Source: Mycoplasma testudinis ATCC 43263 (GTDB lineage Bacteria > Bacillota_I > Bacilli_A > Mycoplasmatales > Mycoplasmoidaceae). From it: a DNA stretch of 64,000 bases. Location of the stretch: positions 1 to 64,000 of the forward strand of contig NZ_JHXT01000003.1 of the NCBI RefSeq assembly GCF_000687795.1. The letters are read 5' to 3'. The notes beneath the pieces are model-generated. The model did no database searches. It was not told the DNA's origin and was given only the letters and a program-made list of their open reading frames with translations. Positions 3,076-8,148 of this stretch are shown piece after piece (the stretch's first letter is position 1; every line of letters starts with the position of its first letter). The position numbers were made by a program, and so were the translations under genes.

Positions 3076-3975
3076 ATGAAAAAGGTATTAAAGCAAAAAG
3101 TAACAATTGATTCTAAAAAGCAAAATAAATTAACTAATTTAACAAAAAATAAAAAAAACCAAAAGAATATTTTAAGGAATCATAAATCCCCAAAAAAACC
3201 CCAAAACAAAACTGAACAAGTTGTTCAACCCAATTTTAACGACATCCCTTCTTATGCTAGATTTTTAGAAAACTGATTATTAGCTAACGTGTCTACTTCA
3301 AAAGCTAATGGTGTTGTTTTTGGTTTATCTGGAGGAATTGATTCAGCTGTAGTTGCTGCTTTAGCAAAACAAGTCTTTGGGCATAATCATTTAGCCGTAG
3401 TTATGCATATGAATAACTCCCAATTAGATGAAGAATGTACAACAAAAGCAATTGACGTTTTACAACTTAATGCAGTTCATTTAAATTTACTTCCTGCTGC
3501 CATTGAAATGGCGTATGCGTTAAACATTGACCCAAAATTACAACCAGAAATATTTGGAAATATCAAGGCTCGAATTCGAACTATAGCTTTATATAGCCTG
3601 GCACAAAAAAATAATTACTTAGTATGTGGTACAAGTAATTATGATGAATGGATGACTGGATACTTTACTAAGTATGGTGACTCAGCTTGTGATTTAGCAC
3701 CATTACGTAATTTATTAAAAAGTGATGTTTACGCCTTAGGCCGCCACTATTTAGTGCCTCAGAATATTATGCGACGTGCTCCGTCTGCTAGTTTGGTTGT
3801 TAACCAAACAGATGAGAATGATTTAAACTTAAAGTATATCGACCTAGACCAACATTTTTTAAATACCAAACCTTTAAAGGGCAATGATTTAAAACACTTT
3901 AACGATTTGCACGAACGCTCAAATCATAAACGAAACCTGCCACCAGCGCCAATGGGGATTTTTAAATTAAAATAA
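3076..3975 (+). CDS. nadE: NH3-dependent NAD+ synthetase with a basic N-terminal extension
   Basis: The protein adenylates and amidates nicotinate adenine dinucleotide to give NAD+, the last step of NAD synthesis. The PP-loop motif LSGGIDSAVV and the downstream GTSNYDEW...TKYGD block are intact, so it should be active with ammonia; no glutaminase domain is present. At 299 residues it is about 50 longer than typical NadE. The extra length is a lysine/asparagine/glutamine-rich, low-complexity N-terminus of about 50 residues. That start is supported by AAGGAG six bases upstream of ATG 3076. One UGA-Trp codon occurs near 3274. The 3' end overlaps the convergent small gene by 9 bp. It links functionally with nadD in this window (47600-48706). 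Confidence 0.95.
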
Positions 3976-4242
3976 ATTGCCTTTTTTAGTGTTAGTCATT
4001 TCACCAACGCTTAAGACAACATTGGATGCAGAGTCCACGATTGCATAAAAATTATAACGTTTAGGTATTTTGTAGTAATCATGACCGTTGTTTGAAAATT
4101 CTGGAACCAGTCCTTCCAAAATCTCATTGATTTTGTCATCAATTTCAAAATCAAGTGTAGCCTTGATATTTAAGCGTTGTTTAATTCGGACTCTGGCATG
4201 ATCACTAACTTTAAATTTGAGTCCTTTTTTGTAGTAACTCAT
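3967..4242 (-). CDS. Small hypothetical protein downstream of udk
   Basis: This 91-residue protein has an N-terminal SDHARVRIKQR segment and a beta-rich C-terminal half (YKIPKRYNFYAIVDS). The pattern loosely recalls small domains of the DUF4258/RelE-like type with a His-Ala-Arg-x-Arg opening, but this is only a resemblance. Its ATG lies one base after the udk stop codon, so it is almost certainly translated from the udk transcript. Its 3' end overlaps the end of nadE by 9 bp in convergent orientation. As I recall, M. genitalium also has an uncharacterised gene next to udk. No membrane segment or signal peptide is seen. Function unknown. Confidence 0.7.
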   Translation of the reverse strand: MSYYKKGLKFKVSDHARVRIKQRLNIKATLDFEIDDKINEILEGLVPEFSNNGHDYYKIPKRYNFYAIVDSASNVVLSVGEMTNTKKGNLF

Positions 4243-4243
4243 T

Positions 4244-4894
4244 TTATAATCCCTTTTTGAGACGCTCTACAAATGCTTTGATTGCTCCGTTGATTGTATC
4301 AGTGGCAATATTATTCATTAAATACCACGGAATAATGATATCCGCCTTTTCTTTTTGGGCTTCAACAAATTGCCGGTGCATCAATCGAACAGAACCACGT
4401 CATTGCTTAATGATTGATTGAATTGTCCGACCTCTTTGCAAATTATCGCGTTCAATCCGCCGAATTAAACGTTCATCACTTGGTGTATCAACATAAATTT
4501 TTAGATCTGCTATTTTATTAATTTCTTCTTTTCAAAAAGTTATTAATCCTTCAAAGATAACGACATCTACAGGCTCGACTTTTTTTGTTTGCAAACTAGA
4601 TGTATATTCTGAATAATCATAAATAGGGGTATTGACCGCTTTCCCTTTTAATAATTGTTTTAATTGTTTAATCATCATTTCTCAATCATATGACGAAGGG
4701 TGATCGTAATTAATTTTTTTTCTTTCGGATAGAGTTTTTTCTTTAAAAGGCAGATAATAGCTATCTTGACAAATAATAGTGCTTTTAAATTTTTTTGGTA
4801 ATAATTTAACCACAGAATCGGCAATTGTGGATTTTCCAGAACCGCTGCCTCCGCTTACACAAATTAGCACAGCTTGTTTTTTATTTGAAGTCAT
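4244..4894 (-). CDS. udk: Uridine kinase
   Basis: The 216-residue protein phosphorylates uridine and cytidine in pyrimidine salvage, which mycoplasmas depend on because they lack de novo synthesis. The P-loop SGGSGSGKST is at residues 14-23, followed by the substrate region CQDSYYLPF and the NYDHPSSYDW block, where the Trp is encoded by UGA. DVVIFEGLITFW and RLIRRIERDNLQRGR fit the uridine kinase family. The length equals the family norm. AGGATTAG upstream of the ATG serves as the ribosome binding site. The small hypothetical gene follows after one base. The 300 bp upstream, shared with the divergent arginine deiminase homologue, would hold promoters for both. Confidence 0.95.
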
Positions 4895-5194
4895 ATTATT
4901 CTAATCCTGGTTTATCTAGTTTATTTGAATTTGTTCTATCGAAAATTTGTTAGTATCTAAATTTTATCAAAACTATTTTTTAAAAAAGGGTTTTATTTTC
5001 GGATGGTGTATTTGAAGCAAATTTAATAGCTCAATTTAAAAAGATGGCATAAATGTTTCAAAACAAACCCGTTTACTTTAAAAACTTCTTGCAGCAGATT
5101 GATTTCGTTAATATAAAATTATATAAATACTTAAGTAAATTTATTATATAGAAGATTAATTAACGTAAATTAAATCTTCTGTTGGAGACAGTCA
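4895..5194. other. Intergenic region between divergent udk and the arginine deiminase homologue
   Basis: This 300-bp gap separates udk (minus) from the arginine deiminase homologue (plus). It is very AT-rich with no convincing open frame. On the plus strand it holds AT-rich -10-like sequences around 5110-5150, then an inverted repeat at 5150-5180 and the GGAGA ribosome binding site at 5184-5188. No tRNA-like or known RNA fold was recognised. Confidence 0.5.
5150..5180 (+). repeat. Inverted repeat in the 5' leader of the arginine deiminase homologue
   Basis: AGAAGATTAATT is followed, after a short loop, by AATTAAATCTTCT, giving a stem of 12 pairs with a single bulged base. It ends a few bases before the GGAGA ribosome binding site and about 14 bases before the GTG start. 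No T-run follows, so it is not a simple terminator. It could affect mRNA stability or access to the start. Confidence 0.5.
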
Positions 5195-6583
5195 GTGGCT
5201 AAAAAAACAACAATAAAAAGCAAACAAAAAACTGTGGCTAAAACATCCATTAATTTTAAAAAAACAAAAAGCTCATTAAGTGTTGTTAATGCTCAACCAT
5301 CTAAAAATGAAATAATAAGCAATAATTTTGGTTTTAATATAGGCGTAAATGTAAAAAATGAAATCAATAAACTGTCAGAAGTTATTGTTCATCGTCCAGG
5401 ATATGAAACTGAACGACTAGTTGGCAAATTGCTAACTAAAAATAACTTTGAAGGAAACATGCATTTAGAACGGGCCCAACGTGAACACGATTTGTTTGTT
5501 AATGTTTTACTAAAACAAGGTATTAAAGTTTATTACCTTGAAAAATTAGTAGCCGAAGCATTAGAATTTGCCGGCCCCTTTGTGAAAGACCAATTCATCA
5601 AACGTTTTGTAAGTGAAGCAAAAGTTAAAAGTGTTAGTGCATATGAAACTTGTGTAAACTATTTTCGAAGTTTTAATTCAACTGTTGATATGATTAACGC
5701 CATGATTGCAGGCGTTAAACAAAACGAAGTACCACCAATTCCGTGAAACCGTTTTAGCGATGTTTCTTTAAGTTCCAATCCATTTTTAATTAAACCTTTA
5801 CCTAAAATGCTTTTTCAACGAGACGGCTTTTTAAGTTTGGGTTATGGTATTAATTTATTAAAGTTAGGAAATCAAGAAAAAGATCGACAAACTTTATTTC
5901 AAGAATATTTGATTAAATTTCATCCTCGATTTGATAATTTGAAATTATATTTCAATCGGGACTTTGAAGATTGCAAAATTTCTGGGAATGATATTTTATT
6001 GATTAATGAACAAAATTTGTTAATTGGAATAAGTGATCAAACCGACGTAAGCGGCATAGAAACCTTAGCTAGAAACGTTTTCAACGATTTAAAAAATCCA
6101 ATTCAACGGGTAGTGGCAGTTAATATCAATTCTTTTAAACAATCCAAAAGACCAATCAATTTATTACAAGCATTTAGTATGGTCGATCGGGATAAATTTA
6201 TTATTGATCAAAACTTATTAAACGCAAATGAAATTTTCGAAATTACGCCATCACCCGAAAAAGACATTGATGGCATTGGAAAACTAAAATTCAAACAATT
6301 GCAATTATCATTTAGTCAAACAATTGAAGCAATCATTAATAAGCGACCCAAGTTCATTATCTGTGGCGGTGGTGATGATGTTCGCGGCGAACGCGAACTT
6401 GCAGATTACGGAATTAGTGTTTTAACAATCGCTCCGGGTGAAGTAATTGCTTATGATCGAAATCGTTACACTAATGAATTACTAACAGAACTTGGAGTTA
6501 TTGTACACACGATTCCTTCGGCCGAATTATCTCGAGCACCTGGTGGACCATTAAATATGTTGTCAACATTATGGAGAGATTAA
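5195..6583 (+). CDS. Arginine deiminase homologue lacking catalytic residues (probable pseudoenzyme)
   Basis: The 462-residue protein aligns by eye with arginine deiminase over nearly its full length: SEVIVHRPG, FQRDGF, GISDQT, SMVDRDKF, CGGGDD, IAPGEVIAYDRN and ELSRAPGGP are the family landmarks. The catalytic positions are changed. The cysteine of the GGPRCMSMP motif is Asn454 (GGPLNML). The histidine and aspartate of MHLDTVFT are Asn322 and Leu324 (INLLQAF). The EGGD glutamate region reads SGND. Only the FxRD arginine-aspartate pair (209-210) is kept. Hydrolysis of arginine to citrulline is therefore unlikely. The frame is intact, which argues against decay and for a retained non-catalytic role. 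A lysine-rich extension of about 45 residues precedes the domain. The start is GTG after GGAGA. M. pneumoniae also, as I recall, has an arginine deiminase gene beside udk. Confidence 0.85.
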
Positions 6584-6625: not shown

Positions 6626-6701
6626 GCGCCAGTAGCTCAGTGGATAGAGCACACGCCTTCTAAGCGTGTGGTCGCGGGTTCGACTCCCTCTTGGCGCGCC
6701 A
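6626..6701 (+). tRNA. tRNA-Arg (anticodon UCU)
   Basis: The 76-base sequence folds as a full cloverleaf. The acceptor stem is GCGCCAG with UUGGCGC, the anticodon stem is CACGC/GCGUG with loop CUUCUAA giving anticodon UCU, and the T loop is GGUUCGACUCC-like. The 3' CCA is encoded at 6699-6701. It reads AGA and probably AGG codons and lies between the arginine deiminase homologue and a strong terminator. Confidence 0.95.
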
Positions 6702-6710
6702 TTAAAAGTA

Positions 6711-6745
6711 AAACGCATTCTATTTGACTAGAGTGCGTTTTTTCT
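6711..6745 (+). terminator. Rho-independent terminator after tRNA-Arg
   Basis: AAACGCA pairs with TGCGTTT and the inner TTCTA with TAGAG, around the loop TTTGAC. Six Ts follow directly. It ends the tRNA-Arg transcript and separates it from rpmG. Confidence 0.85.
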
Positions 6746-6883: not shown

Positions 6884-7045
6884 ATGGCTGTTAAACGTGG
6901 TACACGAATGAGTTGTTCAGATTGTTCTGAAATTAACTATATTACACATAAAAATTCGAAAAAAAATCCTGACAAATTAGAACTTAACAAATTTTGTTCA
7001 AGATGTCGTAAAGCAACAGTTCATAAAGAACTTAAAAAGAAATAA
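6884..7045 (+). CDS. rpmG: 50S ribosomal protein L33
   Basis: This 53-residue protein (MAVKRGTRMSCSDC...) is a large-subunit protein. It keeps the zinc-ribbon form of L33 with CSDC at residues 10-13 and CSRC near residues 38-41, and it ends in a lysine tail. The start is preceded by TAGGAGA at good spacing. It is followed after two bases by an aminopeptidase gene, the same pair that I recall in M. genitalium. Confidence 0.93.
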   Translation: MAVKRGTRMSCSDCSEINYITHKNSKKNPDKLELNKFCSRCRKATVHKELKKK

Positions 7046-7047
7046 TT

Positions 7048-8148
7048 ATGCTTCAAATTACTAAAAGCAAAGCAGTTGTCAATAATTCGGCTGATTTCAA
7101 ATTTAAACATCAAGCAGTAATTGAATTATTAAAAACCAAAAAAGCAGATACATTACTCTTAACATCAGATCAAAACCGTCAATGATTTACCGATTTTAAG
7201 GGAACCTTTGGTTTTTTATTTATTACTAAAACTAAATCGGTTTTGTTAACGGATGCCCGTTATTATGAAGCGGCTTGCAAGACGATTAAAGGTACAGAAG
7301 TAATTTTGTATAATTCAGCTAAATTAGTGTCAGAAATTGCTAAGAAATTGAAAGTGAAGCATTTGCTGATTGAGTCTGAATATTTGACTTATACTTATGA
7401 TGCATTAATTAAAGAAATTAGTGAAAAACAAACTATTGTTGAAACTAAATTACTTCGGGCTGCTAAAACTGCTGCAGAAATTGAAAAAATTAAAAAAGTC
7501 ATAGATATTACTGCAAAAGTTGGAAATAAGCTTCCTGAGTGGATTAAACCAGGGATGACTGAAATAGATTTAGCAAAAAAGATTACAATTGAATTAATTA
7601 ATGCTGGTGGGGATAAAAATTCGTTTGATCCGATCGTAGCTTCTGGTCCTAATGGTTCAAGCCCACATCATCATCCTACTAGTCGCAAAATGTTATCTGG
7701 AGATTTTGTAACTTGTGACTTTGGTACAACATATGATGGATATTGCTCGGATATTACCCGGACATGAGTTGTTGGTAACAAACCCAAAAATACTCGTTTA
7801 ATAAATGCTTATAAAACAGTTGATGCTTCAAACACCAAAGGAATCCAAAAAGCTCGCGCCGGAATCATTGGCAAGGATTTAGACTTTGTTTGTCGGGATT
7901 ATATTAATCAAACTGAATTTGCTAAATTTTTTGTTCATGGTACTGGTCACGGAGTTGGACTAGATGTCCACGAATTACCAAACGTTTCTTCTGGATACGA
8001 TCGGGAATTAATGACTAATGCAGTCGTTACTATAGAACCTGGTATTTATCTTCCAGGTATCGGAGGAATTCGGATTGAAGACATGGTTTTAATTAAACCG
8101 AAAAAGTCGATTTGATTATCAGAAAAGATCAAACGCTTAAAACTATAG
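7048..8148 (+). CDS. pepP: M24 family Xaa-Pro aminopeptidase
   Basis: The 366-residue protein is a metallopeptidase that releases N-terminal residues next to proline, helping to recycle peptides imported by this auxotroph. A creatinase-like N-terminal half precedes the pita-bread catalytic domain. The metal ligands are recognisable: DFGTTYDGYCSDITRT (two Asp), HGTGHGVGLDVHE (His), TIEPGIY (Glu) and GIRIEDM (Glu). Several tryptophans are encoded by UGA, including one directly after the DITRT motif, so the gene looks split under the standard code. It follows rpmG by two bases and is followed ten bases later by a membrane protein gene. Confidence 0.92.

Follow-up and report, generated by a model that had tools for sequence, protein, structure and literature searches.

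The window, i.e. the whole stretch of 64,000 nucleotides of Mycoplasma testudinis ATCC 43263 that was analysed (contig NZ_JHXT01000003.1), contains a gene for a paralogue of arginine deiminase (ADI) that is predicted to be catalytically dead and is here called pADI. The gene order comprises a gene whose product belongs to the MPN565 family (NCBIfam; 1068-1742), obg, nadE, a small ORF, udk on the reverse strand, pADI, a tRNA-Arg(UCU) gene, a small gene (~6884-7045), and a gene for an M24-family peptidase. The features of the locus are summarized in Table 1.

Table 1. Features of the pADI locus, and pADI residues at the active-site positions of ADI (window coordinates; reference residues in M. 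arginini-type numbering)
Feature	Position	Strand	Evidence
udk (uridine kinase), divergent neighbour, conserved beside pADI in the genus	4244..4894	-	NCBIfam, locus comparison
GGAG, Shine-Dalgarno-like, 7 nt 5' of the pADI GTG start	5184..5187	+	sequence reading
pADI, predicted catalytically dead ADI paralogue, 462 aa, GTG start	5195..6583	+	ORF reading, family and structure alignments
Lysine-rich N-terminal extension of pADI, residues 1-47, predicted disordered, pI about 10.6	5195..5335	+	model and composition
Lys204 in place of substrate-binding Asn155	5804..5806	+	98-ADI alignment
Asp210, equivalent to catalytic Asp161, retained	5822..5824	+	98-ADI alignment
Ser263 in place of catalytic Glu213 of EGGD	5981..5983	+	98-ADI alignment
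Gln282 in place of substrate-binding Arg232	6038..6040	+	98-ADI alignment
Asn322 in place of catalytic His269	6158..6160	+	phmmer and 98-ADI alignment
Leu324 in place of catalytic Asp271	6164..6166	+	phmmer and 98-ADI alignment
Asn454 in place of catalytic Cys398; Asn in 8/8 orthologues	6554..6556	+	98-ADI alignment
tRNA-Arg(UCU), 42 nt past the pADI stop	6626..6701	+	locus comparison
Terminator-like hairpin, first after pADI, beyond the tRNA	6710..6741	+	weak; 1 found vs 1.2 expected by chance
M24-family aminopeptidase/dipeptidase gene (pepP/pepQ-like), conserved downstream neighbour	7048..8148	+	NCBIfam, locus comparison

Gene, locus and the arginine pathway

Read with genetic code 4, the pADI frame comprises 462 codons with one TGA (Trp) and no internal stop; that it is intact over 462 codons had been stated in an earlier, sequence-only reading of this DNA. 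The product covers positions 5-377 of the 377 positions of the PF02274 profile (E=9e-97), i.e. a full-length ADI domain, and residues ~50-455 were aligned end to end with ADIs of the PDB (4bof, 4e4j, 1s9r) by phmmer. The score against TIGR01078 is 303 bits, below the equivalog cut-off of 489; this cut-off alone is not decisive for pADI, because the canonical ADI of the same genome, whose active site is intact, also falls below it (394 bits). The GTG start and a basic, lysine-rich N-terminal tail (pI about 10-11) are found in all eight pADI orthologues, and the lysine-rich extension that had been pointed out in the window is thus a common property of these proteins.

The gene order of the window is shared, except for nadE, by M. 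imitans, M. bradburyae and one further genome of the genus (G001). In M. amphoriforme, pADI has different neighbours, yet tRNA-Arg(UCU) still lies 42 nt after its stop codon; this tRNA gene is found directly 3' of pADI in five of five loci (window 6626-6701; L034:7435-7510; L035:7286-7362; L036:7287-7363; L143:5644-5720). No terminator-like hairpin was predicted between pADI and the tRNA gene in the window or in M. amphoriforme, the next one being located past the tRNA, and co-transcription of the two genes is possible as judged from this arrangement. The linkage is a weak sign of function and may represent ancestral gene order, since tRNA-Arg(UCU) is located near udk also in genomes that do not carry pADI. 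For uridine kinase itself, no match was obtained in M. amphoriforme (G005), though it was found in the other genus genomes searched.

A 91-aa protein is encoded beside udk (3967-4242, reverse strand), overlapping the end of nadE in the window; it has no NCBIfam match and is conserved in the six genus genomes that were checked (window, G001, G002, G007, M. imitans and M. bradburyae). The nadE product (NAD synthetase; 3076-3975) is extended at its N-terminus by about 55 residues, rich in lysine, ahead of the conserved domain, and the peptidase-like protein adjoining pADI in M. amphoriforme (L034:2371-4632) likewise has a lysine-rich N-terminal extension; tails of this basic kind seem to be common in this lineage.

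pADI is not placed together with arcB/arcC or an antiporter gene, its neighbours being udk, the tRNA-Arg gene and the peptidase gene. A second arcA with an intact active site, which the sequence-only reading had suggested looking for together with arcB and arcC, is present on contig C17 (GTG start, 399 aa) and adjoins two APC transporter genes (L003:2604-6305). The search for the other two genes was successful in part: arcB is located on contig C31, and TIGR00746 gave no arcC match in the 92%-complete draft genome. The genes of the arginine pathway are scattered, and the pathway may be incomplete in the draft.

Replacement of the active-site residues

The active site was compared in an alignment of 98 ADIs (eight pADI orthologues, including that of the window, and 90 other ADIs) at seven positions: N155, D161, E213, R232, H269, D271 and C398. 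All seven are invariant in the other ADIs (90/90), and none of the eight pADI orthologues retains Cys398, His269, Glu213, Asp271, Asn155 or Arg232; the arginine-contacting Arg180 is also kept in none (0/8) and is Lys in the window. The replacements of the catalytic cysteine, the catalytic histidine and the next acidic residue by Asn454, Asn322 and Leu324, as well as the change at the glutamate of the EGGD region, had been recognized in the sequence-only reading, and the former three proved exact both in this alignment and in the phmmer alignments to ADIs of known structure; the latter is the replacement of Glu213 by Ser263. The loss extends further into the pocket than had been noticed, as the arginine contacts Asn155, Arg180 and Arg232 are replaced too. 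Misalignment was ruled out, and no shifted but functional Cys or His is present, because the alignment is firm and gap-free around the flanking motifs PSAELSRxxGGPxN and DRDKF.

The loss is concentrated at the active site. Canonical ADIs share 48 positions with a conservation of at least 95% (7 active-site, 41 other); all eight pADIs have lost 6/7 of the active-site positions vs 9/41 of the others (Fisher p=0.002). Residues such as D216, E345, Y364, N367, T370 and R405 are still present in the pADI orthologues.

Within the pADI clade, the former catalytic positions are variable in part. The Asp271 position is Leu, Ser or Asn, the His269 position is Asn in the window and Ser or Arg in the other orthologues, and the Asp161 position is Asp only in the window, Glu in M. 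amphoriforme and Lys or Arg in the remaining orthologues. The residues at 155 and 161 are oppositely charged, with the signs exchanged from one sub-clade to the other (K/D or E vs D/K or R); this pair may plug the old pocket structurally, a weak reading because only two states are seen. Asn454 and Gln325 are new and invariant in the clade, Asp266 is kept, and there is a clade-specific insert around residues 356-363 (K-D-x-D-G). As far as can be judged from the aligned residues, these losses show that the pADI clade cannot operate by the known ADI chemistry.

Distribution, origin and selection

When 320 genomes of the order, including 11 of the genus, were searched with a profile, pADI orthologues were found in eight of the 11 genus genomes (750-862 bits), M. 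amphoriforme, M. imitans and M. bradburyae among them; the next matches were ordinary ADIs with at most 291 bits. Three genus genomes do not contain the gene, and no pADI was found in the genomes of this search outside the genus. Identity to the window pADI is 67-69% for M. amphoriforme and about 45% for M. imitans and M. bradburyae; all eight species have an intact frame, even at 43-47% identity. The best active-type relatives share up to 38-39% identity with the window pADI, and the canonical ADIs of the pADI genomes 28-32%.

In a maximum-likelihood tree, the pADIs form one clade (100/100) beside the Bacilli-type ADIs, with a long stem (1.38 changes per site) and a weakly supported exact sister group (81/7). 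The canonical mycoplasmal ADIs of the same genomes form a separate clade (100/100); the two ADIs of the genome are therefore not recent duplicates, and an origin of pADI by recent duplication of the genome's own arcA was ruled out. The pADI clade has a single origin, apart from the canonical ADI.

Among close species, dN/dS is 0.06-0.14 for pADI and 0.05-0.14 for canonical ADI; pairs with the window pADI were left out, their synonymous sites being saturated. For M. imitans vs M. bradburyae, the values are 0.07 for pADI, 0.06 for obg, 0.06 for udk, and 0.11 for pepP. A sequencing error or decay in a single genome was ruled out by the occurrence in eight species together with these ratios.

An AlphaFold2 model of pADI has the ADI fold (pLDDT 80, pTM 0.79), with residues 1-47 disordered. 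TM-scores of the model against 4bof are 0.79/0.89, and those to target for the ADIs 4bof, 4e4j and 1lxy are 0.85-0.91. Because of the single-origin clade, the low dN/dS and the predicted ADI fold, we hold with high confidence that pADI is a genuine, selected pseudoenzyme that retains its fold by prediction. That selection keeps a non-enzymatic protein here had already been proposed from the letters of the window, and the eight intact frames and the fixed Cys-to-Asn replacement support it as well. pADI very probably does some non-enzymatic job.

Proposed function and comparison with known systems

pADI descends from a Bacilli-type ADI (the 'GRGGPRCM' lineage), distinct from the working 'GMGSARC' ADI of the genome, in which the catalytic residues (Cys, His, Glu and Asp) and the arginine-contacting Asn and Arg were lost. 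This loss took place once, earlier than the divergence of the amphoriforme-like from the gallisepticum-like species, and purifying selection has since kept the protein in its predicted fold. Since catalysis is absent and the tail is basic, we propose that pADI could be a binding or scaffold protein, soluble and cytosolic, whose ADI fold offers a surface for interactions, and its disordered, polycationic N-terminal tail might touch a polyanion (RNA or the ribosome, DNA, or acidic lipid); its work would be independent of the ADI pathway and of arginine binding in the old pocket. For this explanation as a whole, a pseudoenzyme with a binding or scaffold role, we estimate a probability of roughly 0.7; the specific mode of binding is guesswork, to which we would give somewhat worse than even odds. 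Several observations count against the proposal: the Asp161 position is still acidic in the window and in M. amphoriforme, i.e. the pocket has changed unevenly across species; three genus genomes do without the gene; the probable counterpart in M. pneumoniae, mpn560, is apparently dispensable in culture; and lysine-rich tails are present also on other proteins of these genomes. A more specific version, in which the polycationic-tailed pADI acts on tRNA-Arg(UCU) or on the translation of arginine codons, draws on the apparent co-transcription with this tRNA gene and on their linkage even in the rearranged locus of M. amphoriforme; we consider it very improbable.

Many pseudoenzymes regulate active paralogues, and a canonical ADI accompanies pADI in all eight genomes, so that pADI could be an arginine sensor, or a regulatory subunit that co-oligomerises with the normal ADI and tunes arginine catabolism. 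This is unlikely, because the arginine pocket is erased (Asn155, Arg180 and Arg232 replaced in 8/8) and because pADI persists without arcB, five gallisepticum-group genomes having no arcB and all retaining pADI. Moreover, the two ADIs belong to different sub-lineages (28-32% identity), which makes a common oligomer interface unlikely, and in M. pneumoniae MPN560 is reported to be intact where the other arcA is split (PMC7737663). A pocket remodelled for a different reaction or ligand would agree with the invariant new residues Asn454 and Gln325, the retained Asp266, the insert, and the swapped charges at 155/161; positions 271 and 269 vary, however, unlike a strongly constrained active site, the cysteine has no replacement nucleophile, and the charge pair is equally explicable as a structural plug, and we regard such a new enzyme as rather improbable.

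Mycoplasmas commonly have moonlighting enzymes on their surface, and the sequence-only reading had considered a surface-exposed, host-binding role, for which the basic tail could serve by binding acidic host polymers. No signal peptide, lipobox or membrane segment was found in pADI (maximum 19-residue hydropathy 1.13), and dN/dS is at the level of housekeeping genes, without the variation typical of exposed proteins; a role of this kind would seem unlikely. The lost catalysis, the long stem branch and the three genus genomes without the gene would also fit a decaying pseudogene that is open by chance, which is hardly credible in view of eight intact frames at identities down to 43-47%, dN/dS of 0.06-0.14, and a fold that is still predicted as that of ADI.

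A literature search on ADI pseudoenzymes returned nothing relevant, and neither the residue losses of pADI nor its genus-wide clade was found described in the literature searched. Annotation pipelines and metabolic models count genes like pADI as arginine deiminase, and the retention of a dead enzyme by selection makes such reduced genomes a clean system in which to learn the function of a pseudoenzyme.

The reference for comparison is ArcA (EC 3.5.3.6; PF02274, TIGR01078), with structures e.g. from Streptococcus pyogenes (4bof), M. penetrans (4e4j) and M. arginini (1lxy). pADI resembles ArcA over its whole length, in its predicted fold and in its Bacilli-type lineage; unlike ArcA, it does not have the catalytic Cys, His, Glu and second Asp or the arginine-contacting Asn and Arg, it carries a basic N-terminal tail, and its gene is located apart from arc genes. 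A non-catalytic member of the pentein (guanidino-modifying) fold is eIF6, which uses the fold as a binding surface without catalysis, as we propose for pADI; unlike pADI, eIF6 did not arise from ADI, and its sequence is very distant.

In M. pneumoniae, the gene order is MPN561 (udk), MPN562 (nadE) and MPN563 (obg), and from this order and the MPN565-family gene of the window, MPN560 is probably the counterpart of pADI. MPN560 is reported as a second, complete arcA that is expressed and apparently inactive (PMC7737663), and it remains intact where the other arcA of this species is split. No variants were found across 15 strains, and its origin is unlike that of MPN304 (PMC4537597); the gene is also counted in the arginine fermentation pathway (PMC6084303). 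As the mpn560 locus has served as the site of the puromycin-resistance gene in an engineered strain (PMC9834763), the gene is apparently dispensable in culture. MPN560 thus resembles pADI as a full-length second ADI, reported as apparently inactive, with its place beside udk, nadE and obg, and if it belongs to the pADI clade, this would explain why M. pneumoniae has an arcA that is intact, expressed and invariant, yet inactive.
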